A stretch of DNA of 64,000 nt. Source: Rubellimicrobium mesophilum DSM 19309. Its GTDB lineage: Bacteria > Pseudomonadota > Alphaproteobacteria > Rhodobacterales > Rhodobacteraceae. Shown here piece after piece: positions 15,100-44,556 of the stretch. The notes under the pieces are model-generated. The model saw only the letters and a program-made list of their open reading frames with translations. It made no database searches and was not told the DNA's origin. The stretch's first letter is position 1. The number at the start of each line of letters is the position of its first letter. Position numbers and translations under genes: made by a program. The DNA is taken from positions 62,001 to 126,000 of the forward strand of contig NZ_KK088615.1 of assembly GCF_000600335.2 (NCBI RefSeq), in the 5' to 3' direction.

Positions 15100-15219
15100 C
15101 GCGTCCCTCCGTGCTGGCCCGGCGCCATGCTAGCGGACTGGTGAGCGCCCGTCAGCCGCCTCGCGTTGACCTTGCCCGCGCCCGGGGGCAATGGTCCCAC
15201 GCGACCGAAAGGACCCCGG

Positions 15220-16497
15220 ATGAGCCGCCCCTTCGCCCCTACGAATGGATGATCGCCTGGCGCTACCTCCGCGCCAAGCGGGCCGAGGGCGGGGTCTCGG
15301 TCATGACCTGGATCAGCCTCGTCGGCGTCACCCTCGCCGTCTTTGCGCTGATCGCCACGCTCGCCGTCCGCTCGGGCTTCCGCGAGGAGTTCGTGGACAC
15401 GATCCTCGGCGCCAACGCCCATGTCACGGTCTACAAGCAGCCCGAGATCGACGCGAACGGTCGGCAGGTCGCCACCATCGCCGACGCCTCGGCCATGGCC
15501 GACCTGATCGCTCAGGTCCCCGGCGTGACCCGCGCCGCCCCCCTCGTGCGCGGGCAGGTCATGGCGACGTTCCAGGGCCGCAACTCGGGCGTGGAGGTCT
15601 TCGGCATCGCGCCCGAGGACCTCGCCACGATCCCCCGCGTCGCGCACCCGGAAGAGGCCGAAGGCAGCCTCGACGACTTCCCGCAGGGCATCGCCATCGG
15701 CTCCGGCGTCGCGCGCGAGCTGGGCATCATGGTGGGCGACAAGCTCCGCATCATCTCGCCCGATGGCGCCCGCACGCCGATGGGCGTCAGCCCCCGCGTC
15801 TCGGCCTACACGGTGACCTACATCTTCACCAGCCGGGCGCTACGACATCGACCGCACCCGCGCATACCTGCCGCTCCCCGAGGCGCAGAAGTTCTTCAAC
15901 CGCGACGGCGTCGCGGACGAGATCGAGGTCATGCTGGACGACCCCGACGACGTGGAGGCGATCGTCCCCGCGATCCTTCAGGCCGCCGGTCCCATGACGC
16001 TCGCCTGGACTTGGAAGGACTCCTCCGGTGCGTTCCTGAGTGCGCTGACCGTCGAGGACAACGTGATGTTCGTGATCCTCTCGGTCCTCGTGCTGATCGC
16101 CTCGATGAACATCATCTCGGGTCTCATCATGCTGGTGAAGAACAAGGGCCGCGACATCGGCATCCTCCGCACGATGGGCCTGACCGAGGGCGCGGTGCTG
16201 CGCGTCTTCTTCCTTTGCGGGGCAAGTATCGGCACCATCGGCACGATCCTCGGCGTCCTCCTCGGCTGCGCCTTCGCCATCTGGATCGACCCGATCTTCG
16301 CCGCCGTGAACTACCTTTCGGGCGGGGGCGTCTGGGACCCCTCGATCCGGGGCATCTATCGCCTGCCCGCCAAGCTCGAATGGGGCGACGTGCTCTCGGC
16401 GGTGTCCCTGTCCCTGTTCCTGTCCTGGGTCGTCACGCTCTTCCCCGCGCGCCGCGCCGCCCGCATGAACCCCGTCGAGGCCCTGCGCTATGAGTGA
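15220..16497 (+). CDS. lolC: Lipoprotein-releasing permease LolC/LolE family (two frameshifts)
   Basis: About 425 residues after correction. With LolD it extracts outer-membrane lipoproteins from the inner membrane and passes them to LolA. The order is an N-terminal helix ([20 protein letters not shown]), a MacB-like periplasmic core, and three C-terminal FtsX-type helices ([20 protein letters not shown]). Two single-base breaks are visible: a missing C in 15236-15239 just after the start ATG, and one extra base at about 15831-15838 before [13 protein letters not shown]. The 3' end overlaps lolD by 8 nt. The window holds probable surface lipoproteins that would depend on it. Confidence 0.88.
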
Positions 16498-17170
16498 CAC
16501 CCTGCGGCTCTCGGGCGTCACCAAGACCTACAACCCCGGCAAGCCCACCGCCGTTGAGGTGCTGCGCGGCGTGGACCTCGCCGTCGCCCCCGGCGAGGTC
16601 GTGGCCCTCGTCGCCCCCTCGGGCGCGGGCAAGTCCACGCTCCTCCACGTCGCGGGCCTCCTCGACACGCCGGACGCGGGTCAGGTGCTCCTCGACGGCA
16701 CCGACATGACCCGCCTCAGCGACCGCCGTCGCACCATGGCGCGGCGCGACCTCGTGGGCTTCGTCTACCAGTTCCACCACCTCCTGCCCGAGTTCACGGC
16801 GCTGGAGAACGTGGTGCTCCCCCAGCTCGCCCACGGCACCCCGCGCGCCCAGGCCGAGGCCCGCGCCCTCGACCTCATGGACCGAGTCGGCGTCCGGAAC
16901 CGCGCCACGCACCGCCCCGCCGAGCTCTCGGGCGGCGAGCAGCAGCGCGTCGCCTTCTGCCGGGCGCTCGCCAACGCGCCGCGCCTGCTCCTCGCCGACG
17001 AGCCCACGGGCAACCTCGACCCCGCCACCTCGGACCGGGTCTTCGACGCGCTCATGGTCCTCGTCCGCTCGACCGGCCTCGCGGCACTGATCGCCACGCA
17101 CAACCTCCAGCTCGCCGCCCGCATGGACCGGGTCCTCAGGCTCGACGCCGGCCACGTCGTTCCGGCATGA
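16490..17170 (+). CDS. lolD: Lipoprotein-releasing ABC ATPase LolD
   Basis: A 226-residue ABC ATPase of the LolD/MacB class that powers the LolC/E permease. Walker A is APSGAGKST, with the Q-loop in [20 protein letters not shown], the signature LSGGEQQR and Walker [13 protein letters not shown]. The [11 protein letters not shown] stretch is characteristic of LolD. It is intact and translationally coupled to lolC. Confidence 0.92.
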
Positions 17171-31673: not shown

Positions 31674-33226
<1,553 letters not shown>

Positions 33227-33230
33227 GCGG

Positions 33231-33243
33231 ATTCGAATCGAAT
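33231..33243. promoter_or_regulatory. Candidate MarR-type operator
   Basis: ATTCGAATCGAAT is a perfect 13-nt palindrome in the AT-richer gap upstream of the MarR gene, about 95 nt before its start. MarR proteins often bind such short dyads in their own promoters. Inference only. Confidence 0.3.
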
Positions 33244-33337
33244 TGTCGAGGTTCGGACGAAAACGTTGTTCCAGCTTAACCTTATCTTGGTAATTTGACG
33301 CCAACCTGTCGCAAATCCCATCCAACGGAGTCGCGAC

Positions 33338-33844
33338 ATGAACCTCCGCCTCGCCCCCGAGCCCATCCTTCCCGCACGCGACGCCGCCTTCATGCGCGGC
33401 TATCTCGACGCCCTCGCCCTGGTGGAACGCCTCCACCGCCTCCTCCTCGACGTCCTCAAGGACGAGTTCGAGCGTCTCGCCATCGAGGACGTGAACCCCG
33501 TCCAGGCGCTCCTCCTCTTCAACATCGGCGAGAACGAGGTCTCGGCCGGGGAGCTCAAGACCCGCGGCTACTACCAGGGCTCGAACGTCAGCTACAACCT
33601 CAAGAAGCTCGTCGAGCTCGGCTACATGCACCACCAGAGGAGCGAGGTCGACCGCCGCTCCGTCCGCGTCCGCCTGACCGACAAGGGCCGCCGCCTGCGC
33701 GATATCGTGGCCAGGCTCTTCGCCACCCACGCGGAGGGGCTGACCTCGCGCGGCATCCTCGACGCCGACACCCTCGACGGCCTCACCCATTCCCTCAAGC
33801 GGGTGGAGCGGTACTGGTCCGACCAGATCCGCTACATCTACTGA
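33338..33844 (+). CDS. MarR-type winged-helix regulator (PetP/LdtR-like)
   Basis: A 168-residue winged-helix protein. Helices and wing are seen in VNPVQALLLFNIGENEVSAG, GYYQGSNVSYNLKKLVELGY and the wing RSEVDRRSVRVRLTDKGRRL. The overall form matches the MarR-related regulators called PetP in Rhodobacter and LdtR in rhizobia relatives, which act in envelope or stress control; the target here is unknown. An AACGGAG ribosome site precedes the ATG. Confidence 0.82.
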   Translation: MNLRLAPEPILPARDAAFMRGYLDALALVERLHRLLLDVLKDEFERLAIEDVNPVQALLLFNIGENEVSAGELKTRGYYQGSNVSYNLKKLVELGYMHHQRSEVDRRSVRVRLTDKGRRLRDIVARLFATHAEGLTSRGILDADTLDGLTHSLKRVERYWSDQIRYIY

Positions 33845-33846
33845 CC

Positions 33847-34550
33847 TTACCCCGCATCCCCTCCGAGGGCAGGCCCGCTCACGACGGGCCGCTCCAACTC
33901 CCGCAGGAGCTTCGTTCTCATGGCCCGCTCATAGTCGCCATAGCCGTCCGCAAGCATCCAGAACGCCCCGGGTCCCCGCAGACGTCCGCCTCGAACCACG
34001 CCCCGAGCGTGCGCCCGTCCTCCGCCCCGCCGATGACGAGGGCGTTGACCGTCACCCCCTCCCACAACGGGTCGGCATAGACGGCGGACGGCCGGGGCCC
34101 GTCGTTGATCTGCCCGTCGCCCGAGATGTCGACCGTCCGGCCCCGGCAGGGCGGCGCCTCCGCCAGGGCCGCGCCGGCGAACTCCAACGCCGCGCCGACG
34201 GCCGTGAAGTCGCTCGGCCCGGTCGTCCGCCGGCTGCCCGCAATGGCCGCCGCCACGCGGGCGAGGTCCGCCTGCGCCTCCACCACAACCCAGCCGGGCA
34301 GGATCGCCCGCTGCGAAGCGGCCCCCGACCAGTCGAAGGCGAACAGCGCCACCGGGTCCCCCCGCAGGAACGCCGACGCCACCTCCGGCGCCATCAGCGC
34401 CCGCGCCAGCCCCTCACGCTGCAACCGGTCCTCCTCTGCGTCCACCGACACCGACACGTCCAGCGCCAGCACCAGGGCCAGTCGGCACCCCTCCGCCCCC
34501 GCCGGTCCCGCCAGCCCGAGCGCGAGCGCCAGGCCGCCCCAGGTCCTCAC
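33847..34550 (-). CDS. DUF1194 secreted von Willebrand A protein, copy 3 (frameshifted)
   Basis: About 234 residues after correction. A Sec signal peptide (LALALGLAGPAGAEG) is followed by a vWA domain with a MIDAS-type DVSVSVD. The frame breaks near 33980: a missing C converts ADVLRGPGAFW into another frame that ends early; the restored end ERAMRTKLLRELE matches its two neighbours. The start is GTG at 34550, overlapping the stop of copy 2. It is the last of three tandem paralogs. Confidence 0.8.
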
Positions 34551-35248
34551 CCGGACGCCCCTCCGAGCACGGCGCCCGCCACCTCCGGCAGCTCGAGCTC
34601 CCGCAGGAGCTTCGACACCATCGCCTGCTCGTAGTCGCCGAAGTCCCGCGCGTGGATCAGGAAGGCGTCCGGCCCGTGCAGGACCTCCCAGCGGAACCAG
34701 TCCACGAGCGGGCTGTCCTCCGCCTCGCCGCCGATCACCAGCGCGTTCACCGTCACGCCCTCGAAGGGCAGGGCCGCGTAGACTTCGCCCGGGTCGGCGC
34801 CCGCGTTGCTGATCCCGTCGCTCGACACGTCCACCGTCCGCGTCCGGCAGGGCGGCCCGGCCTGCAGCGCCTCCCAGGCATGGCGCAGCGCCGCGCCGAG
34901 CGCGGTGTTCAGGTCGTCCCGGCTCCGCTCGCTTCCCGCGATGGCCTCCGCCGCGCGCCTCAGGTCCGGCTCGCCCCGCACCACCATCCAGCCGGGCAGG
35001 AGAGGGGTCTGCACCCGGCTCCCCGACCACTCGAAGGCGAAGATCGCGACCGGCTCCCCGGTCAGGAAGGCCCGCACCACCTCGGGCGCCACCAGCGCCC
35101 CGGCCAGCCCCTCCCTCTGCAGCCGGTCCTCCGTCGCATCGACCGAGGACGAGATGTCGAGCGCCAGCACCAGCGCGAGCCGGCAGTCCGCCGCCGCGGG
35201 GCCCGCCAGGCCCAGCGCCACCGCCACGGCGGCCAGAGTCCCGGTCAC
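34547..35248 (-). CDS. DUF1194 secreted von Willebrand A protein, copy 2
   Basis: A 233-residue exported protein (signal LAAVAVALGLAGPAAAD). The vWA/DUF1194 domain shows the MIDAS DISSSVDATED, RLQREGLAGALVAPEVVRAF, then VDVSSDGISNAG with a second acidic metal site, and a conserved end DYEQAMVSKLLRELELPE. vWA domains bind Mg2+/Ca2+ and mediate protein contacts. It overlaps copy 1 and copy 3 by 4 nt on each side, so all three are co-translated. Confidence 0.85.
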   Translation of the reverse strand: MTGTLAAVAVALGLAGPAAADCRLALVLALDISSSVDATEDRLQREGLAGALVAPEVVRAFLTGEPVAIFAFEWSGSRVQTPLLPGWMVVRGEPDLRRAAEAIAGSERSRDDLNTALGAALRHAWEALQAGPPCRTRTVDVSSDGISNAGADPGEVYAALPFEGVTVNALVIGGEAEDSPLVDWFRWEVLHGPDAFLIHARDFGDYEQAMVSKLLRELELPEVAGAVLGGASG

Positions 35249-35958
35249 CCCGCCGCCCCGTCCAGGGGCACCCCGCCCACCATCGGCAGCTCCAGCTCCT
35301 TCAGGAGCTTGGCTTCCATCGCGTTCGCGTAGTCGTCGTAGCCCCGCGTATAGACCGAGAAGGCCCCCGGGCCATGCAGCACCTCGGCTTGGAACCAGGC
35401 CACGAGCCGCGCGTCCTCGCCCCCCGCGCCGCCCACGATCAGCGCGTTCACGGTCACGTCCGCCAGCGGAAAGTTCTCGTAGGCGAGCCGGGGGGAGAAC
35501 CCGTCGTTGTGGACGCCGTCGCCCGCCACGTCGATGGTCTTGGCCCGGCAGGCCGGCGCGTTCCGCAGCTCCGTCGCCGCATGGCCCAGCGCCGCGCCCA
35601 CCGCCGTGGGCAGGTTGCTGCGGCTCCTCCGGCTGTCCAGGATCGTGCGCGAGATGCGGTCGAGGTCCGCCTCGTCGGTGACCAGCTCCCAGCCCGACAG
35701 GATCGCCACCTGCGAATGTTCACCCGACCACTCGAAGGCGGCGAGGGCGACCGGATCTCCCGCGAGGAAGGCCTCCCTCACGCCCGGCGCGACCAGCGCC
35801 CGCGCCAGCCCCTCGCGCTGGAGCCGGTCCTCGCTCGCGTCCACCGAGGACGACACGTCGAGAGCGAGCACCAGCGCGAGCCGGCAGTCCTGCGCCTCGG
35901 CGCCCCCGGCCAGCGCCGCCCCCCATGCCAGCATCAGCAGGGCAGGGGGCCGGCGCAT
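35245..35958 (-). CDS. DUF1194 secreted von Willebrand A protein, copy 1
   Basis: A 237-residue exported protein (signal LLMLAWGAALAGGAEA). It has the MIDAS DVSSSVDASED, IDVAGDGVHNDGFSP and the C-terminal DDYANAMEAKLLKELELP. It is the first of the triplet in the direction of transcription, with an ATGA overlap to copy 2. The glyoxalase gene ends 4 nt upstream. The role of the family in Rhodobacterales is not established. Confidence 0.85.
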   Translation of the reverse strand: MRRPPALLMLAWGAALAGGAEAQDCRLALVLALDVSSSVDASEDRLQREGLARALVAPGVREAFLAGDPVALAAFEWSGEHSQVAILSGWELVTDEADLDRISRTILDSRRSRSNLPTAVGAALGHAATELRNAPACRAKTIDVAGDGVHNDGFSPRLAYENFPLADVTVNALIVGGAGGEDARLVAWFQAEVLHGPGAFSVYTRGYDDYANAMEAKLLKELELPMVGGVPLDGAAG

Positions 35959-35962
35959 CCGC

Positions 35963-36391
35963 TCACCAGTGGCCGGTGTTGGGCATCGAGGACCAGGGCT
36001 CCTGCGGAGGCTTCCGCTCGCCCTTCTGCAGGATCTCGATGGACACGTTGTCGGGCGACCGCACGAAGGCCATGTGGCCGTCCCGGGGCGGCCGGTTGAT
36101 CGTCACGCCCGAGTCCTGCAACTGCCGGCACATCTCGTAGATGTCGTCCACCTCGTAGGCGAGGTGCCCGAAGTGCCGCGAATCCGACGGCAGTCCCTCG
36201 TCCCCGTCCCAGTTCCAGGTCAGCTCGACCGGGCACTCCTCCTGTCCCGGGGGCGCCATGAACACGAGGCTGAAGCGTCCCCCCTCGTTGTCGATGCGAC
36301 GGATCTCGCGCAGCCCCAGCTTCTCGTAGAACGCCTTGGACGCATCGAGGTCCTTCACGCGGACCATGGTGTGCAGATATCGGACCGTCAT
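35963..36391 (-). CDS. Lactoylglutathione lyase-like VOC protein (glyoxalase I)
   Basis: A 142-residue protein close to GloA, which isomerises the glutathione-methylglyoxal hemithioacetal. Seen are YLHTMVRVKDLDASKAFYEK with the first metal His, VELTWNWDG with a Glu, FGHLAYEVDDIYE with the second His, and VSIEILQKGE with the second Glu: the four expected ligands H/E/H/E. Cytoplasmic. It is immediately upstream of the DUF1194 array, probably without functional link. Confidence 0.85.
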   Translation of the reverse strand: MTVRYLHTMVRVKDLDASKAFYEKLGLREIRRIDNEGGRFSLVFMAPPGQEECPVELTWNWDGDEGLPSDSRHFGHLAYEVDDIYEMCRQLQDSGVTINRPPRDGHMAFVRSPDNVSIEILQKGERKPPQEPWSSMPNTGHW

Positions 36392-36443
36392 TCCGTCCCT
36401 CCCTTTGCGGAAGGAACCTAGCAGGCCGGGCGGGCCGCGCCAG

Positions 36444-37823
36444 TCAGAAGGTCGACTCGAACCCGAGGTCGAGGCTCAGGGCGTTCCGGTCGATGCGGTC
36501 CGCATCCGATTCCGTCCGGCTCGCCTCGATGGTCACCGTGGGTTCGAAGCCCCAGACCTCGAGCCCCGGCAACCCCATCGTGGCCCGCAGGGTCCCGCGC
36601 AGGTCGTCGCGCCCCTCCGGCGCGAGGAATGACTCGTCGAACCGCCGCCAGTCGATCTCCGCCCCCAGGCCGAGATGCACCCCGAGGATCGGCTCGGCCC
36701 AGTCGTAGCCCGTTCCGGCGGTCACGCCGCTGTAGGTCGTGTCGGGCAGCTCGTTCAGGTAGTCACGCGCGCCCAGCGAGACGTTGAACCGGTCCCCGCC
36801 CTCGCGCAGATGCGTCCAGCGCCCCCTCAGGCCGATCGAGCGCGTACGGTCGAGGTCCACCTCGCCACCGCTCAGCTCCTGCCGCCGCTCGGTCCAGTCG
36901 GCGAACACCGACAGCGAGAGCCGGTCGTCCTCGTCCAGCACGAAGGACCGGTCGTAGCCCAGTTGCGCGAAGCGGGTGTAGGGCTCGCCGCCGTACCAGG
37001 TCCGGCCCACCGTCGCCCGCAGCGCCGAGGGGCCGGTCGCCCCCTCGGCCTGCCAGCGATGGACGAGGCTCTCGGAGAAGGCGAGGTCGGCGTAGTCGCT
37101 CCCCTCCGCGTCCGGGGCGGTCCGCTTGGCCTCGTCGCTCAGGACATAGGTCGTGCCGTTGACGGCGGTCTCGAGGAAGGTGGCCGACCGCTCCCCCGTC
37201 GCGATCCGGTAGGACAGCGTCGCCCCGCCCGAGACGCGCAGGCCGGAGAGGGGCAGAGCGTCCCCCACGGGAATGGTGGGAAGGTAGCCTCCGAAGGTCG
37301 GGATGTAGAGCCAGACGACATCCGCCGAGGTGCCGCCATTCACGTTGGAGGAGGGCGCGATCCCGAAGCTCAACGACACCGAGAGGGGGTTGTGGGCCCG
37401 CACCGACCGGTAGTCGCGCTCGAGCGCGGCCAGCGCCTCGGCGTTGGGGGCGTCGCTTCGCGCGCGCCGCAGCCAGAACTGGGCCAGCGTGTCCTGTCCG
37501 AGGTCGAAATAGGCCTTGGCGATCAGCCGCGACGCGAGGAAGCGCTGCGTCCCGTCCGAGAGGCCGTGCGCCCGCCGCGCCGCGTCCAGCCCCTCCCTGG
37601 TCTCGCCCATCTCGATGGCCGCCCGCGACAGCAGCAGGAGCGCCGTCACGTCCTCCGGGTCGCGCCGGAGCAGGGCCTCCGCCATGTTGCGGGCCTCCGC
37701 CGGCTGCCCTTGCGCCAGCAGCCGCGCCGAGATCTCGCGCAGGCCCGCCGCGTCGGTCACGACCTGCGAATGGGCAGCGCCCGCCCAAAGGGCGAGCGCC
37801 AGGGTAAGGAGCGGACCGCGCAT
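36444..37823 (-). CDS. Slam-type outer-membrane translocon (type XI secretion)
   Basis: A 459-residue protein with a signal peptide (LLTLALALWAGAAHSQ) and a TPR-like helical domain (about 20-140: ALLRRDPEDVTALLLLSRAA, RLIAKAYFDLGQDTLAQFWL). The rest, about 300 residues, is an amphipathic beta barrel that ends in Phe (LSLDLGFESTF), the outer-membrane insertion signature. A TPR domain plus a 14-strand barrel is the architecture of Slam (DUF560), which moves lipoproteins to the cell surface. It directly follows, with a TGATG overlap, a lipoprotein with a TbpB-like barrel, the typical cargo arrangement. A GTG at 37826 is an alternative start. The Slam call rests on architecture plus context. Confidence 0.75.
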   Translation of the reverse strand: MRGPLLTLALALWAGAAHSQVVTDAAGLREISARLLAQGQPAEARNMAEALLRRDPEDVTALLLLSRAAIEMGETREGLDAARRAHGLSDGTQRFLASRLIAKAYFDLGQDTLAQFWLRRARSDAPNAEALAALERDYRSVRAHNPLSVSLSFGIAPSSNVNGGTSADVVWLYIPTFGGYLPTIPVGDALPLSGLRVSGGATLSYRIATGERSATFLETAVNGTTYVLSDEAKRTAPDAEGSDYADLAFSESLVHRWQAEGATGPSALRATVGRTWYGGEPYTRFAQLGYDRSFVLDEDDRLSLSVFADWTERRQELSGGEVDLDRTRSIGLRGRWTHLREGGDRFNVSLGARDYLNELPDTTYSGVTAGTGYDWAEPILGVHLGLGAEIDWRRFDESFLAPEGRDDLRGTLRATMGLPGLEVWGFEPTVTIEASRTESDADRIDRNALSLDLGFESTF

Positions 37824-39394
37824 CACCGGTAGACGATGAAGCCGCCGGTCTCCTGCGCCGTCACGCCGTCGAAGCGGGGGTCCGCGCTCTCGACCACCAC
37901 GATGCCGACGATCTCGTCCGCGTTGTCGCCGGCCATGATCGCGTAGTAGTTGCCCGCCTCGTATTCCACGACCTCGCCGTTCTCGTCCACGCGGGTGCTG
38001 CGGATGCCGCCCGCCATCTCGCCGTTCTGCGTCACCGTGCCCGGCCCGATGTCGAAGAGCAGGTCCGCATCGGGAAGGTCGACCACGATGGCGTTGCCTT
38101 CGCTGTCCGTGTAGGCGCGGTCGGTGATCTGGCCCTTCACGCCGCCGCCGTCGTTGAAGTCGGCGAAGTCGACATCGACCTGGGCCTCGCCGGTCACGTA
38201 GTAGAGGTCGTCGCCCGGGGCAGCGCCCGCCATGACGCGCATCCCGGCATAGTCCCCGGCGAAGGTGGCCTGGCCGCTGGTGGGCAGCTCCACGCCGCCG
38301 TTCCGCTCGTAGACGAAGCCGCCGAAGCCGTAGTCCACGAAGGACCCCGTCCGCACGATGGCGAATTGCGTCGTCGGCTCGCCGTTCGCGGCGACGGTCG
38401 TGGACCGGCCCAGGATCGCCCGGTACTGGAGCTGGCTGACCTCGTTGCCGCTCAGGTCATCCGGCACCACGGTCGCGGCCTCGTAGACGGTGTAGAGCGC
38501 CTGCCCGTCCGGGTCGCTCAGCGTGGTCACCGCCGGGTTGTCCTCGCGGGTGTAGACGTTGTCGCCGTCGAAGGCGAGGTTGTCGACCTCGAAGGTGTCG
38601 TTCGCGGCGTTGTAGGTCACGTCGCTGACATAGCCGCCGGTCGCGCTCGGGGCCTCGCGGCGGAAGATGCTCTCCTCCGGGGTCGGGCGCTCGGTCCCTG
38701 GCGGCAGTTCGGGGTCGCCGTTGATGCCGCCGGGGACCTCGTCGACGTCCGGCACGCCGTCGTTGTCGTCATCGGGGTCCAGGTCGTCGATCACCCCGTC
38801 GCCATCGGAGTCGATCTCGCTGGTGTCGGGGGTGCCGTCGTTGTCGTCGTCTTGGTCGAAATCGTCGATCCGCCCGTCGCCGTCGGTGTCCACCTCGCTG
38901 GTATCTGGGGTCCCGTCGTTGTCGTCGTCCAGATCCCGATCATCGATCAGCCCGTCGCCGTCGGTGTCGACCTCGTTCGCGTCGGGGGTGCCGTCGTTGT
39001 CGTCGTCCGGGTCGAGGTCGTCGATCAGCCCGTCGTCGTCGGTGTCGGGCTCGCGCCGGTCGGGGGTGCCGTCGTTGTCGTCGTCCGGGTCGAGGTCGTC
39101 GATCAGCCCGTCGTCGTCCGAATCGGCCTCGCGCGTGTCGAGGATGCCGTCGTTGTCGTCGTCGCGGTCCTTGTCGTCGATCAGGCCGTCCTTGTCCGAA
39201 TCGACCTCGTCCTCGTCGAGGATGCCGTCGTTGTCGTCGTCGGTGTCCTCGGAATCCATGATCCCGTCGTCGTCGGTATCCACGTTGGTCCCGCCGTCGC
39301 CACCGCCGCCGCTATCCTCGTCGAAGAACGGCTGCCCGTCGCCGCAGGCCGAAAGAGCGGCCAGGAGGCCAAGCATGATAAGAGTGCGGTTCAT
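37823..39394 (-). CDS. Surface lipoprotein with TSP3 calcium-repeat stalk and TbpB-like barrel (Slam cargo)
   Basis: A 523-residue lipoprotein. The signal peptide ends in the lipobox LSAC (Cys17), followed by a Gly/Asp linker. Residues 39-220 are seven units of 26 residues (consensus DTDGDGLIDDLDPDDDNDGT plus six), thrombospondin type 3-like loops that bind calcium. The C-terminal 250 residues form a beta-rich domain with FGGFVYERNGGVELPTSGQA, ATFAGDYAGMRV and the end QETGGFIVYR, as in TbpB-type barrels carried by Slam cargo. The ligand is unknown; no TonB receptor is adjacent. The calcium repeats could form a rigid stalk that lifts the barrel off the membrane. Confidence 0.75.
   Translation of the reverse strand: MNRTLIMLGLLAALSACGDGQPFFDEDSGGGGDGGTNVDTDDDGIMDSEDTDDDNDGILDEDEVDSDKDGLIDDKDRDDDNDGILDTREADSDDDGLIDDLDPDDDNDGTPDRREPDTDDDGLIDDLDPDDDNDGTPDANEVDTDGDGLIDDRDLDDDNDGTPDTSEVDTDGDGRIDDFDQDDDNDGTPDTSEIDSDGDGVIDDLDPDDDNDGVPDVDEVPGGINGDPELPPGTERPTPEESIFRREAPSATGGYVSDVTYNAANDTFEVDNLAFDGDNVYTREDNPAVTTLSDPDGQALYTVYEAATVVPDDLSGNEVSQLQYRAILGRSTTVAANGEPTTQFAIVRTGSFVDYGFGGFVYERNGGVELPTSGQATFAGDYAGMRVMAGAAPGDDLYYVTGEAQVDVDFADFNDGGGVKGQITDRAYTDSEGNAIVVDLPDADLLFDIGPGTVTQNGEMAGGIRSTRVDENGEVVEYEAGNYYAIMAGDNADEIVGIVVVESADPRFDGVTAQETGGFIVYR
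38735..39280 (-). repeat. Seven tandem 78-bp units encoding calcium-binding TSP3 loops
   Basis: This coding tandem array lies inside the cargo lipoprotein gene. Each 78-bp unit encodes two Asp-rich loops (DTDGDGxIDD and DDDNDGTPD). Third-to-fourth units are almost identical at the DNA level, so unit number is likely to vary between strains by slippage or recombination. Confidence 0.85.
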
Positions 39395-39583
39395 ATGACG
39401 ACCTGTCCCACAAGGATTTGGCCCGACCCTCGCCGACGACCCGCTTCGCCGTCAACTGCGCGGACTCGGCCCGCCGTCCTGTGTCGCCGCCGGGCCACGG
39501 CCCACGCGCGCCCGAGGTCCGGCGCCGCTTTCCGCCGCCCGCCCAGCCGCTAAGCTGCCCCCCGTCGCAAGGAGGACCGACCC

Positions 39584-40502
39584 ATGCCGCTGACCCCCGA
39601 GCAGGAGGCCGAGATCGCGGCCCTCCGCGAGACCGCCCGCCCCACGCTCCGCCCCGTCGCCGAGGGCATGGAGAAGCACCTCCACCTCGTCCACCCGGTG
39701 CTCGACCACGGCTTCGTCCGCGTCGTTGACTACATGGGCGACGACTCGTCCATCGTGCAGGCCGCCCGCGTCTCCTACGGGCGCGGCACCAAGTCCGTGC
39801 AGAACGACGAGGGGCTGATCCGCTACCTCATGCGCCACTGGCACTCGACCCCCTTCGAGATGTGCGAGGTCAAGCTCCACGTGAAGCTGCCGGTCTTCGT
39901 GGCCCGCCAGTGGATCCGCCACCGCACCGCGAGCGTCAACGAATACTCCGCCCGCTACTCCATCCTCGACCGCGAGTTCTACATCCCCGCGCGCGAGGCG
40001 CTGGCCGCCCCAAGAGCGCCGTCAACAACCAGGGGCCGGGGGCGAGACCCTCTCCGACGACGAGGCCGCCCGCGTCCTCGACTGGCTGCGCGAGGACGCC
40101 ACGCAGGCCTACGACCACTACGAGGCGATGATCTCGCAGGAGGGCCAGCAGGGCCTCGCGAGGGAGCTCGCCCGCATGAACCTCCCCATGAACGTCTACA
40201 CCCAGTGGTACTGGAAGACGAACCTCCACAACCTCTTCAACTTCCTGCGTCTGCGCGCCGATTCCCACGCCCAGTACGAGATCCGCGTCTACGCCGAGGC
40301 CCTGGCCCGCATCACCCGCGACTGGGTCCCCTTCGCCTGGTCGGCCTTCGAGGACTACCGGATGGGAGGCGCCCAACTCTCCGCCAAAGGTGTCGAGGTG
40401 CTGAAGCGGAGGCTTGCCGGGGAGGTCGTCACGCAGGAGACCTCTGGGATGAGCAAGGGGGAATGGCGGGAATTTGAGGGGGTGTGGGGCACAAATGGTT
40501 GA
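39584..40502 (+). CDS. thyX: FAD-dependent thymidylate synthase ThyX (frameshifted)
   Basis: About 305 residues. It makes dTMP from dUMP using FAD, NADPH and methylene-tetrahydrofolate. The ThyX motif is intact in [15 protein letters not shown], preceded by FARQWI-type FVARQWI. The flanks also fit ([11 protein letters not shown]-like [30 protein letters not shown]). Three single-base indels lie in 40008-40042: a missing C at 40008-40011 and one extra G in each of two G runs at 40032-40042. Corrected sequence reads [20 protein letters not shown]. It is essential unless thyA exists elsewhere, so an error is likely. Confidence 0.88.
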
Positions 40503-41514
40503 TCTTGCAGACTTGAAAGCTCCAAGTGTTCAGCGCAGCTTAGAGCGGGTTCAAAGTATTGAGCCTGCATCGGTTGTCCTCGCGAAACACGGCCAGTATT
40601 CGTTCGAAGATGCTGTTGAGCCTGTCAGTAGGCTCGTATCCCTATTCAGGCAGCTTCCGTCCAGCTCGCTCGGACATTTTCCTCAGCAACAACTTGAAAT
40701 GATACAGAATTTATCTGACTCTGTGTTTTCAGTGATTCAGGAAATTAAGAACTTTGATTTGGAAGCCGGGGACAACACAACTCGTCGGCAGAATTTAATA
40801 GCTAAGCTGGACTCTCTATATCAAGGTGTCTTCACTCAGTTATTTCCTTTGGTGGCCTATGCTGTTGCAAGAACTGCCGACCTCGGACGTCTTGAGATCG
40901 AGCAGCAGGCAGCGCTTCAGAGGATGCGCGATGAGTCGCAGTTGGCACTTGCTCAACAACAGGATGCCCAAGCAGAGATTGAACGAGTGCTCGATGATGT
41001 CCGAAGGGTAGCTAGCGAACAGGGTGTTACACAGCAGGCAATCTATTTTAAGAACGAGGCCGACAGATATGAAGCCCAGAGCCGATCTTGGCGGCGGGCC
41101 ACAGTGACTATGGCTGTTGCTGTAGGCCTGTTTGGCCTGATAGCGCTCTTTTTGCCAAAATGGACATGGCTCGCGCCAACAAACAGCATCGAATTGGTCC
41201 AGTATACTCTCGCGAAAGTGCTGATGTTCTCAGTCCTTGTGTTTATGCTCATATTCTGTTCAAGGAACTTCCTTGCGAATCGGCACAATGAAGCAGTCAA
41301 TCGGCACCGACAGAACGCTCTGCTAACCTACAAGGTTCTTGTAGATGCGGGCAGTAATGGTGAAGCGCGTGACATTATTTTGAATCACGCTGCTTCGGCG
41401 ATTTACAAACTCCACGAAACGGGTTTCACGCGCTCTTCGGAAAGCAGCGGGGGCTCAAGTGCATCGGTTATTGAAATGCTGCCTAAGGCAAGTATGCCGG
41501 TCAGTTTGGGTTGA
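40495..41514 (+). CDS. Low-GC membrane protein with coiled coil, unknown function
   Basis: A 339-residue protein. A helical N-terminus leads to a coiled coil (about 135-185: LEIEQQAALQRMRDESQLAL, DAQAEIERVLDDVRRVASEQ). Two transmembrane helices follow (about 205-222, TMAVAVGLFGLIALFL, and 240-260, VLMFSVLVFMLIF), then a cytoplasmic helical tail. No enzyme motif is seen. GC is about 49% and codon use is unlike the flanks. The ATG overlaps the last 8 nt of thyX, so the insertion point coincides with the thyX 3' end. It is clearly acquired; a role in defence or signalling is possible but unsupported. Confidence 0.7.
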   Translation: MVDLADLKAPSVQRSLERVQSIEPASVVLAKHGQYSFEDAVEPVSRLVSLFRQLPSSSLGHFPQQQLEMIQNLSDSVFSVIQEIKNFDLEAGDNTTRRQNLIAKLDSLYQGVFTQLFPLVAYAVARTADLGRLEIEQQAALQRMRDESQLALAQQQDAQAEIERVLDDVRRVASEQGVTQQAIYFKNEADRYEAQSRSWRRATVTMAVAVGLFGLIALFLPKWTWLAPTNSIELVQYTLAKVLMFSVLVFMLIFCSRNFLANRHNEAVNRHRQNALLTYKVLVDAGSNGEARDIILNHAASAIYKLHETGFTRSSESSGGSSASVIEMLPKASMPVSLG

Positions 41515-41630
41515 TAGTGTAAGTCTTGGAGAACGTCAGTTGAGTGAGGAAAAGCAGGTTTAGGGTAGGTGAAGTCCGCATCGGGTTCGCAACCCACGCC
41601 GAGGCCCTCTCGGGGCGAAGGAGGGACGCT

Positions 41631-41661
41631 GTGGGTGGCGCCCCTTCGGAGCTTCACCCAC
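41631..41661. repeat. Hairpin element after the low-GC gene
   Basis: GTGGGTG and CACCCAC (41631-41637 / 41655-41661) enclose GCGCCCCTTCGGAGCTT. It has the same GGGTG/CACCC character as other palindromes in the window and marks the return from low to high GC. Confidence 0.4.
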
Positions 41662-41720
41662 CCTGCGGCAGGCCTCAACTGCTGTCCCGTCTTGCCGCCC
41701 CACACTCACGGAGCCCACCC

Positions 41721-41936
41721 ATGTCCCGCCTGATCCGCCAAACCCACCGCTGGACGAGCCTCGTCTTCGCCCTGCTGGTCGCCGGCATCTTCCTCGCCCT
41801 GGGCCTGGGCTCCGAGCCCGCGCAGTGGGTCTACTTCCTCCCGCTGGCGCCGCTCTTCCTGCTCCTCCTCACCGGCCTCTGGCTCTTCGTGCTCCCCTAC
41901 CTCGCCCGCTCGCGCCGAGTCGCCCGGCCGGAGTAG
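41721..41936 (+). CDS. Small two-helix membrane protein
   Basis: A 71-residue protein with two hydrophobic helices (SLVFALLVAGIFLALGLG and FLPLAPLFLLLLTGLWLFVL) and basic ends (MSRLIRQTHRW, ARSRRVARPE). Short proteins of this form are common in Rhodobacterales and have no known role. The ATG at 41721 follows a weak GGAG site. Confidence 0.65.
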   Translation: MSRLIRQTHRWTSLVFALLVAGIFLALGLGSEPAQWVYFLPLAPLFLLLLTGLWLFVLPYLARSRRVARPE

Positions 41937-42069
41937 GGTGGTGTCCCACCCCGCCATCCCCGGCCCGAGACGGTGCTGATTCGTCCCACCTCGCGGCCGG
42001 CTGAAGCCCACCCACCGGGGCGACGCAACAACTGACGCGAGCACTTCCGCAGCAATATCAGCCCCTTGC

Positions 42070-42135
42070 CCCTGAGGTGTTGCGTCCCCCCACCCCCCAC
42101 CGAACGCCGCGTTCACCACTCGTTAACCTCTCTCC
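42070..42135. repeat. Dispersed intergenic repeat, copy B
   Basis: It shares ggtgttgcgtccccc, ccccccaccgaacgc and tcgttaacctctctcc with 3674-3740, in the same orientation relative to the window and again between convergent genes. Spacer sequence differs between copies, so selection may act on the blocks. Confidence 0.6.
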
Positions 42136-42474
42136 CGCACTCTCCTCCTCAGAGTCGCGCGGGAGTCCTTTGGTTCGCGCCTCCCTCGGCAGGGGCTTTG
42201 GTCGGCCAGCCCCTCGCCAGGATCACATGACTGACCATGTCCGGGGCTCGCCCAAGCGCGAGAGAGGCTTCACGGACGAGAGCTCTTTGAAGGGTGGGCG
42301 CGGGCCCCTCACCCCCTGGGAGATGCCTTGGGCAGGCATCGCAAAGACCCAGCCGCCGCGTGCCGAAGCGCGCTCCCACCCGTGCCGGCTTGGCCGCCGG
42401 ACGAGGTGGCCCCCGGGAACGACGGGCGGCGTGGCTCTCCACACGCCGACCGTGACGGCCCGGGACCGAACGGA

Positions 42475-42501
42475 AACGGCCGGAGCCACGCTCCGGCCGT
42501 T
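42475..42501 (-). terminator. Terminator hairpin downstream of cspA
   Basis: AACGGCCGGAGC and GCTCCGGCCGTT form a perfect 12-bp stem with a 3-nt loop, 20 nt past the cspA stop. On the minus strand it is followed by TTTCCGTT, a weak U-tract. Confidence 0.65.
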
Positions 42502-42520
42502 CCAACCTCCTGCGCCGGCC

Positions 42521-42730
42521 TCATTGCGCCTTGCGCAGGTTCCCGGCCATCTTCCGGCCGTCGCGGCCCTCGATCATGTCGAACTCGACCTTCTGGTTGT
42601 CCGCGAGCCCCGTCATCCCCGATTGCTCCACCGCCGAGATGTGGACGAAGATGTCTTTCCCGCCATCATCCGGCGCGATGAAGCCGTAGCCCTTCGTCGT
42701 GTTGAACCATTTCACAGTGCCGCTGGCCAT
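42521..42730 (-). CDS. cspA: Cold shock protein, CspA family
   Basis: A 69-residue single cold-shock domain with RNP1 KGYGFI and RNP2 DIFVHIS, the RNA/ssDNA-binding motifs. It acts as an RNA chaperone. It is intact and has its own hairpin terminator. The leader on the minus strand contains a GGGCGCC/GGCGCCC palindrome (42753-42767) that may fold in the 5' UTR. Whether it is cold-induced cannot be seen. Confidence 0.92.
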   Translation of the reverse strand: MASGTVKWFNTTKGYGFIAPDDGGKDIFVHISAVEQSGMTGLADNQKVEFDMIEGRDGRKMAGNLRKAQ

Positions 42731-42897
42731 CGTCGTCTCTCCGTCGCGCCTTGGGCGCCTGGCGCCCGTTCACGCCGGGAAACCTAGGCGTCGGGGCCAA
42801 GCGGGCAACGTGTCCGCAACCCGAAATTGCAAGGCCCGGCAAAGGAAAGGCCCCCGACGCCATCGCGCCCGGGGCCCCGTTCAGACGCTGCGCGCCG

Positions 42898-44073
42898 TCA
42901 GATGTCGTCGCGCGTCCGGTCGCCCGTCAGCCGCGTGCGGTCGCCGGTCCGCTCGTCCTCGATCTCGACCTCGGTCTTGCGGACGGTGTCCTGGATGGTC
43001 TGCCGCTCGACCTCGGTCTCCTTGCGCAGGCCGATCTCCTCGACCACGCGGGCCTCCTTGTTGACGACCGGCTCCTCGCGGTATTCGCGGGCTTCCAGCG
43101 TCCGGTCGCCGAACTGCACGTCGCCCGGATTCACCGCGCGGTCCACCGGACGGCGCTCCACGTAGACGCGCTGCGCCCGCAGGTCCACGTCGGCCGAGAC
43201 CGGCTCCTCGCGGACATAGGACCGGACGCGCACCGCGCCGCCCTCGACCTCGCGCTTGCCGACGTTCAGTCGCTCCTCGACGACCTTGAGCGTGCCGTCC
43301 TCGTTGTAGTCCTCGTCGCGGTAGTCGGTGGCGCCGAGCCCAGTCGTCTGCCGCATCGACGCCGTGTCGGCATAGCCCTGCTGCTGCGAGCCCAGGTCCG
43401 CCTGGCTGCGGCGCCCGGTGTCGGCCGCCATCTGCAGGTTGCGGTCCTGCATCCCGTCGTCATAGATCGTGCCGCGCGTGTTGCTGTCCCCGGTCAGGGC
43501 ATCGCCCACCCGGTCCGCCCCACGGGCGATCGCGTCGCCGGTCCGCTCGGCCGCGCTGCCGATCGTGTGGCCCAGCCCCGCCGCCGCGCCCGACAGCCCC
43601 GAGGTCCCGCCAGCCATGCCGCCGGTGCCCGAGATGTCGTTCGGGTTCGCGTAGTAGGGCGAGGTCCGGTAGTCCGACCAGCCCGACGACCGCCACTCGC
43701 TCTCCCGCGCGTCGAGGTCCACCGAGCCCTCGTCGTCGAGGATGTCGACCACGGCGTCGTACATCGTCGACTCGAACCCGCTCACGGTCACCATGTGCGA
43801 GCCCCGCGCCAGCCCCTCGGCGTAGGCGTAGCGATCCTCCTCCGGGAAGAAGAAGTCCGCGAGCGAGTCCCAGAAGCCCTTGTGCTGGTCGCGGTAGGTC
43901 GTGTCGCTGGTGTCGACCGTGCCCGAATAGCTCGTGTTCGAGCCCTGGGTGACGCGGATCTGGCTGTCGGGGATCCCCGCCGAACGCAGCCGCGAGGCCG
44001 CGCGCTCCGCCTCGGCCGCCGTGTCGAACATCGCGGTGACGGTGCGCGTGCCGGTATAGGTGTCGTCCATCAT
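42898..44073 (-). CDS. YflT plus DUF2382 (YsnF/AvaK) stress protein
   Basis: A 391-residue protein. The N-terminal YflT/general-stress-17M-like domain contains TVTAMFDTAAEAERAASRLR. A Gly/Ser/Asp-rich linker of about 130 residues follows, then a C-terminal DUF2382 domain (LKVVEERLNVGKREVEGGAV, VYVERRPVDRAV, REEPVVNKEARVVEEI). Proteins with this domain are tied to general or osmotic stress; the biochemical role is unknown. Start at ATG 44073 after GGAGTGACCAG. In the given sequence the upstream gene reads into this one without a stop, which I attribute to an inserted base. Confidence 0.78.
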   Translation of the reverse strand: MMDDTYTGTRTVTAMFDTAAEAERAASRLRSAGIPDSQIRVTQGSNTSYSGTVDTSDTTYRDQHKGFWDSLADFFFPEEDRYAYAEGLARGSHMVTVSGFESTMYDAVVDILDDEGSVDLDARESEWRSSGWSDYRTSPYYANPNDISGTGGMAGGTSGLSGAAAGLGHTIGSAAERTGDAIARGADRVGDALTGDSNTRGTIYDDGMQDRNLQMAADTGRRSQADLGSQQQGYADTASMRQTTGLGATDYRDEDYNEDGTLKVVEERLNVGKREVEGGAVRVRSYVREEPVSADVDLRAQRVYVERRPVDRAVNPGDVQFGDRTLEAREYREEPVVNKEARVVEEIGLRKETEVERQTIQDTVRKTEVEIEDERTGDRTRLTGDRTRDDI

Positions 44074-44078
44074 TCTGG

Positions 44079-44556
44079 TCACTCCTGAGTGGGTGTCTGG
44101 ACTTGCGTGTTCGCCCAGCGGGGGAAGCCGTTCCACCTCCGCCACCTGGCGGTGGAGCTCGACGGGCACTTCGACCTCGCGGCTCCGGGCCTTGCGGCGG
44201 ACGTGGACTTCCTCGACCAGGAACAGCCTCTTCTCGACGACGAGGCGCTCCTCGTAGACAGGCAGGATGGTGACGTCGCCGTCGCTGCGCGGCGCTTCCG
44301 CCGCCTCGACGAAGCGGCCCACCGGGACGCGCTCCACCTCCACGGCCACATCCTCGAGCGTGTCGCGGACGGTGTCCTGGACGGTCTCGGTCCGGGTGGA
44401 GACCCGGATGCCGCCCTCGTCCACGATGCGCTTGCCGATGACGGCCCGCTCCTCGACGCGCTCGATGACCCCGTTCTCGGGGAGCCGCTCCGCAACGCGA
44501 AGACGGTCCTCCCGGGCACGGGGATCGGTCGGGTCGAAAGAGGGGACTTGCGCCAT
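44079..44556 (-). CDS. DUF2382 (YsnF-like) protein, short form (frameshifted)
   Basis: About 158 residues, mostly one DUF2382 domain (VAERLPENGVIERVEERAVI, GKRIVDEGGIRVSTRTETVQ, LPVYEERLVVEKRLFLVEEV). One extra base in the G run 44120-44124 (plus strand) shifts the end; without it the protein ends RWANTQVQTPTQE with a stop at 44079-44081, 5 nt before the next start. It is paired with the longer DUF2382 gene and probably expressed with it under stress. Confidence 0.72.

Follow-up and report, generated by a model that had tools for sequence, protein, structure and literature searches.

Two adjacent minus-strand genes in a 64,000-nucleotide stretch of Rubellimicrobium mesophilum DSM 19309 (contig NZ_KK088615.1, positions 62,001 to 126,000; hereafter the window) encode a lipoprotein of 523 amino acids (37823..39394) and, after it, an outer-membrane barrel protein of 459 amino acids (36444..37823). 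The stop codon of the first gene overlaps the start of the second in the sequence TGATG, with a GTG at 37826 as another possible start. The lipoprotein begins with a signal peptide (39344..39394), MNRTLIMLGLLAALSAC, whose lipobox LSAC, as in cargo of the type XI secretion system (T11SS), places the lipid-bearing cysteine at residue 17; Pfam LPAM_1 matches below threshold (E 0.13). A stalk of seven units and 14 calcium-loop motifs spans residues 39-220 (38735..39280), and is followed by a head with a C-terminal barrel (37826..38692). The gene pair, its overlap and its lipobox are as described in a first-pass annotation, which proposed a type XI (Slam) pair. Slam homology, a predicted cargo fold, locus synteny, co-variation of Slam and cargo and a difference in tether were computed, and the two genes very probably form a cluster-3 Slam pair, of the type known from marine bacteria, whose calcium-type units would act as a spacer.

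Searches of Pfam, NCBIfam and PDB sequences with single proteins were nearly blind, and it was the family alignments that decided the assignment of the barrel protein. Relatives at E<=0.001 occur in 104 of 198 sampled genomes of the family, at 104 or more places. Of these, 60 (in 59 genomes) were taken with flanks of about 5 kb; most are full-length and among the top scorers, and several places that were partial, lay at contig ends or ranked lower were excluded. Among 41 aligned Slam proteins with convenient starts (the window's, that of locus L181 and 39 from the 60 loci), 27 match SlipAM at E<=0.01, the best at 4.2e-11. The family profile aligns to nine canonical Slams (SlipAM matches of at least 170 bits) with a probability of 99.5 over 402 columns, and to eight lower-scoring SlipAM proteins with a probability of 100 over 412 columns, the two sets coming from the 17 of 30 SlipAM loci with a cleanly picked frame. 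With the barrel part only, the values are 99.3 and 99.9, respectively, and reversed, column-shuffled and cargo controls reach at most 2.7. The same profile matches 275 of 394 family genomes, an upper bound because many weak, probably TPR, matches are included. The AlphaFold model (mean pLDDT 93.6) places TPR helices at about residues 25-144 and barrel strands at about 147-457; 14 long strands are counted in its DSSP list, the architecture of a TPR domain and 14-stranded barrel given for Slam in PMC5449769. The protein ends in phenylalanine (ESTF), in agreement with its initial description as a TPR plus C-terminal-Phe barrel. Profiles and model together support its assignment to the Slam family of T11SS outer-membrane proteins.

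The lipoprotein is the predicted cargo of this barrel. In the AlphaFold model of its C-terminal 289 residues (mean pLDDT 89.5), eight long strands are counted at the C-terminus, as in a TbpB-type barrel. At E<=0.001 Foldseek gave 14 matches, of which 13 bear the title TbpB and one 'Surface Lipoprotein'; the C-terminal domain of NHBA comes next (E 0.0022). FHBP_C matches weakly, at E 0.11 with the whole protein and 0.037 with the C-terminal part, and is matched at E<=0.05 by 12 of 31 aligned cargo proteins, the window's included (best 9.5e-7), a count that applies to window-like cargo because divergent cargo, type 1 (see below) among it, was left out of the alignment. TbpB_B_D, the family first suggested for this domain, is matched by one of the 31 (E 0.02). 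The predicted TbpB-like barrel is therefore supported by Foldseek and FHBP_C. Because of the family-level SlipAM matches, the full-length profile alignment, the TPR and 14-strand model and the TbpB-like cargo, the two genes are read as a T11SS pair.

Several results weigh against this assignment. Taken singly, the barrel protein has mostly TPR matches in Pfam and falls below the SlipAM cut-off (E 0.35, residues 268-459), and SlipAM is unmatched in the window's own genome, as in all 14 control genomes. The best Foldseek matches of the barrel model are other TPR-barrels (BcsC, PelB) and porins, no Slam structure is among the best 50 fold matches, and a PDB profile search with the Slam alignment gave TPR-region matches among the 60 listed. 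For the cargo, similarity to TbpB is modest, with TM-scores of 0.30-0.46 (by query length) and a high root-mean-square deviation, and searching the PDB with its family profile yielded no cargo relative. The stalk has no match to any Pfam TSP3 family at E<=10. The proposed SlipAM/DUF560 profile comparison succeeds for the family but not for the single protein, and structure prediction returns a Slam architecture and a TbpB-like fold.

The stalk is a strictly regular array, in which each of the seven units has exactly 26 residues and the 14 DxDxDGxxD-type motifs are spaced by exactly 13; 1000 composition shuffles of the 185-residue stalk gave a mean of 0.74 and a maximum of 4 motifs. At the DNA level it is a 78-nucleotide tandem repeat (6.3 copies, 84% matches). 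What had been called seven TSP3-type repeats is indeed a calcium-loop array, but the label refers to the motif and implies no membership in a Pfam TSP3 family. In G204, a genome from another species of the genus, the stalk matches TSP3_bac at E 0.013 and 15.8 bits, below the cut-off of 25. Among solved structures, the window stalk is closest in sequence to lanmodulin, a lanthanide-binding protein of EF-hand type (E 1.5e-7), a similarity that probably reflects shared loop composition. The stalk probably binds calcium, or possibly another metal. A stalk of this length would lift the lipoprotein off the cell and could serve as a spacer. Alternatively, and this is unlikely, the genes are a T11SS pair whose stalk is an acidic flexible tether, a low-complexity length polymorphism without specific calcium binding. 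The lack of a TSP3 match fits such a tether, as do the DNA tandem repeat, which is able to expand, and the tethers of relatives, which are of low complexity, rich in D/G/S/T/E and variable in length. The number of motifs, 14 as against a shuffled maximum of 4, and their exact spacing, shared by the eight motifs of the G204 stalk, argue instead for calcium-type units.

From the lipid-bearing cysteine to a conserved PPGT column, the tether measures 214 residues in the window; in 57 other cargo proteins it measures 10-77 (median 27), and 10-49 where the lipobox of the relative is resolved. By pattern, no lipobox is recognised in five of the 59 cargo proteins (L054, L069, L077, L081, L085), whose tether lengths are accordingly overstated or unsure. 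The extra length in the window consists of the seven calcium-loop units. Within the genus, a Slam occurs in four of eight genomes and a stalk in two of those four: G202 has the window's cargo type without a stalk, G200 a different cargo type, also without a stalk, and G204 a four-unit stalk, with its eight motifs at 13-residue spacing, on a G200-like head. The stalked cargo gene and Slam gene of G204 (locus L182, 6105-8779) each span two frames in the assembly, and the cargo type was for that reason assigned by inspection and not by tree.

A search with the stalk matched 15 of 394 family genomes at E<=1e-4, in 17 loci, four of which have a Slam-like frame: the window and those of G202 (L181), G018 (L078) and G733 (L231). 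The cargo tethers of the last three lack any calcium motif, and among the remaining matches the one inspected (G634) is a 925-residue protein without a lipobox start. No second Slam-adjacent stalk was found besides the window's in these 394 genomes, which cover 393 genera at about one genome each, the window's genus being represented by its own genome and G202; other species-level stalks may be missed because of this sampling, which lacks G204. A contig scan with the whole lipoprotein kept 80 loci, mostly stalk-type matches, with no Slam-like frame at E<=1e-3 in the available sequence, and at the 30 SlipAM loci, which come from the phylum's other genomes, no frame with at least three calcium motifs lies within about 1.5 kb. 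No publication joining T11SS with TSP3 repeats was among the literature matches listed, a scope outside which bioRxiv and most subscription papers lay. The locus is of a described type, and the stalk is its one unusual architectural feature. The genus provides a natural experiment, G202 having the same head but no stalk and G204 a stalk on a different head, so that the contribution of tether length and of calcium to Slam export and to ligand reach can be tested.

On the minus strand the lipoprotein and barrel genes are followed by a gene for a Glyoxalase-family protein (35963..36391, Pfam E 9.7e-20) and by three tandem DUF1194 genes (33918-35958), at 35245..35958 (E 7.9e-58), 34547..35248 (E 5.1e-57) and 33918..34625 (E 1.1e-46, start uncertain), each with a DxSxS (MIDAS-type) motif. 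The divergent neighbour is thyX (39584..40502, plus strand), which is split between two frames in this assembly: the open reading frame (ORF) 39584-40477 encodes the N-terminal portion of Thy1, and ORF 40128-40502 its C-terminal portion, the result of either a sequencing error or a pseudogene. Downstream of thyX, a 346-residue ORF (40474-41514, plus strand) has no Pfam match at E<=0.001, and a relative of it (44%) sits behind thyX in locus L058. A Pfam scan of ten neighbouring ORFs (32954-44556) gave no TonB receptor, as the first-pass annotation had noted. It had also placed lolC-lolD in the window; a MacB_PCD match at 15111-16493 and an ABC_tran match at 16490-17170, both on the plus strand, are compatible with LolC and LolD, but such matches alone are no proof of that identity.

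The thyX, glyoxalase and DUF1194 neighbours are those of the T11SS loci that PMC12282271 (2025) describes as marine cluster 3 in Rhodobacteraceae and Roseobacteraceae and that encode a predicted cargo lipoprotein, and the synteny suggests that the window locus belongs to this cluster; its glyoxalase and DUF1194 genes are part of the described locus. A distant match (25.5% identity) on a plasmid of Pseudorhodobacter turbinis likewise points to these families. The earlier view of Slam as mainly host-associated is overtaken by these environmental Slams, published with the same neighbourhood. At the 60 sampled loci, a same-strand stop-to-stop frame of at least 200 codons at the Slam start, counted as cargo, is present in 55, glyoxalase in 55 and thyX in 51. 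All of thyX, cargo, Slam and glyoxalase are found together in 47, and DUF1194 as well in 32, a lower bound given the BLAST criterion used; both glyoxalase and thyX are absent from three (L039, L041, L081).

According to PMC12282271, DUF1194 co-occurs with 102 of 145 cluster-3 loci, and whether these systems keep a cognate cargo or use, for example, DUF1194 was left open there. Co-variation across the sampled loci bears on this choice. With glyoxalase and ThyX distances controlled for, Slam and cargo distances correlate at 0.56 (n=50; a value that 0 of 2000 permutations reach), and again at 0.56 without the window locus (0 of 5000, n=49), whose ThyX frame is broken; L080 (Slam shorter than 400 residues) and L081 (cargo of 202 residues, no lipobox) were dropped from the test. 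Over a common set of 25 loci, the correlation of Slam with cargo reaches 0.62 (0 of 5000), as against 0.12 for Slam-DUF1194 (495 of 5000), 0.07 for Slam-MarR (1162), -0.03 for Slam-glyoxalase (3120) and 0.11 for Slam-ThyX (628). The neighbour genes correlate with one another at only 0.24-0.26 (191 and 263 of 5000), and these controls therefore carry limited signal. Within Slam, the TPR part (0.57-0.59) and the barrel (0.41-0.45) each follow the cargo.

It is very improbable that Slam has the DUF1194 proteins as its principal cargo or partner in place of the lipoprotein. Beyond their co-occurrence, DUF1194 genes co-vary weakly with Slam, at 0.20 in a larger set (16 of 2000, n=35), 0.30 for a second copy (15 of 2000, n=21) and 0.27 in the 23 rows with the tightest DUF1194 lengths (75 of 5000); however, the value falls to 0.16 once cargo is added as a control (99 of 2000, n=34), and in the common set it is far below that of the lipoprotein. 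That Slam co-varies strongly with the lipoprotein and weakly with DUF1194 argues, independently and at the level of sequence, for the lipoprotein as cluster-3 cargo. That the barrel is another TPR-barrel, of the exopolysaccharide-secretin or porin kind, with the lipoprotein a periplasm-facing neighbour, is likewise very unlikely: BcsC and PelB as best solved fold matches and the mostly TPR matches of the single protein speak for it, and the controlled family-level SlipAM homology, the predicted TbpB-like fold, the Slam-cargo co-variation and the 14 long strands against it.

Average linkage divides the cargo into two types, with 13 and 37 of the 50 members. A two-cluster cut of the Slam distances fails to recover these types and isolates L085 from the other 49. 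The agreement is visible only in the Slam tree, where the cargo-type label requires 3 changes, compared with a shuffled mean of 11.6 (0 of 500 as low). On the glyoxalase-ThyX tree it requires 12, as many as shuffled labels would (360 and 393 of 500 as low). Both trees come from quick searches, and the one of the neighbours has low resolution (8 of 47 inner branches starred, 16 open). The exceptions on the Slam tree are L082, with type-2 cargo and a Slam of the type-1 group, and L033, the reverse. The L082 cargo is 59% identical to the window head, and its Slam, 29% identical to the window's, groups with type-1 Slams, a possible re-pairing. The pattern looks as though Slam and cargo had been swapped together at a single chromosomal position, without the flanking genes.

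In Neisseria, Slam1 is the outer-membrane translocon for unfolded TbpB, Skp keeps the cargo unfolded, and a C-terminal motif of the cargo is thought to be recognised (PMC9090332). By analogy, the window lipoprotein would be exported by Sec, lipidated at Cys17 and carried to the outer membrane by Lol. Slam would recognise the C-terminal barrel, and the unfolded protein would thread through the 14-stranded Slam barrel, fold outside and be anchored in the outer leaflet, exposed at the surface. The seven calcium-type units would replace the short low-complexity tether of relatives and, with calcium bound, should stiffen into a spacer keeping the TbpB-like head off the membrane. The stalk adjoins the lipid and would exit the pore last, if the C-terminus leads; that its calcium-driven folding also aids export is speculation. 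A broader reading, tentative and on the whole doubtful, joins these observations: Slam and cargo would form a swappable cassette in a fixed thyX-glyoxalase slot, translocon and head being exchanged together across genera, and the tether would evolve independently, one genus having rebuilt it as a calcium-stiffened stalk of variable unit number. Calcium-rich water would fold the exiting stalk and could ratchet the last step of export. If true, exchange of the whole pair would be in keeping with a receptor or adhesin that is strongly selected to diversify, by phages or grazers for instance.

Compared with known systems, the window cargo is longer than that of published cluster-3 loci (523 residues as against 282-375 in 10 of 11 loci), and the words 'calcium', 'TSP' and 'stalk' are absent from the main text of PMC12282271. 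That paper describes other T11SS cargo with repeats: Pls-like helix repeats, proline-threonine repeats in Sphingomonas and PTD repeats in Psychrobacter; these resemble the window cargo in having an N-terminal repeat region before the C-terminal barrel, but are not of the calcium-loop type. With bacterial TSP3 repeats (PF18884) the stalk shares tandem DxDxDGxxD loops, but it differs in its profile scores, the window stalk having no reported match at E<=10 and that of G204 scoring below the cut-off. Unlike the Slam1-TbpB pair of Neisseria, the window pair is distant in sequence, the single protein scoring below the SlipAM cut-off, lacks a TonB receptor among the scanned neighbours, and has one lobe-like head on a long stalk; it has in common with that pair a TPR domain with a predicted 14-stranded barrel and a lipoprotein cargo of predicted TbpB-like fold.

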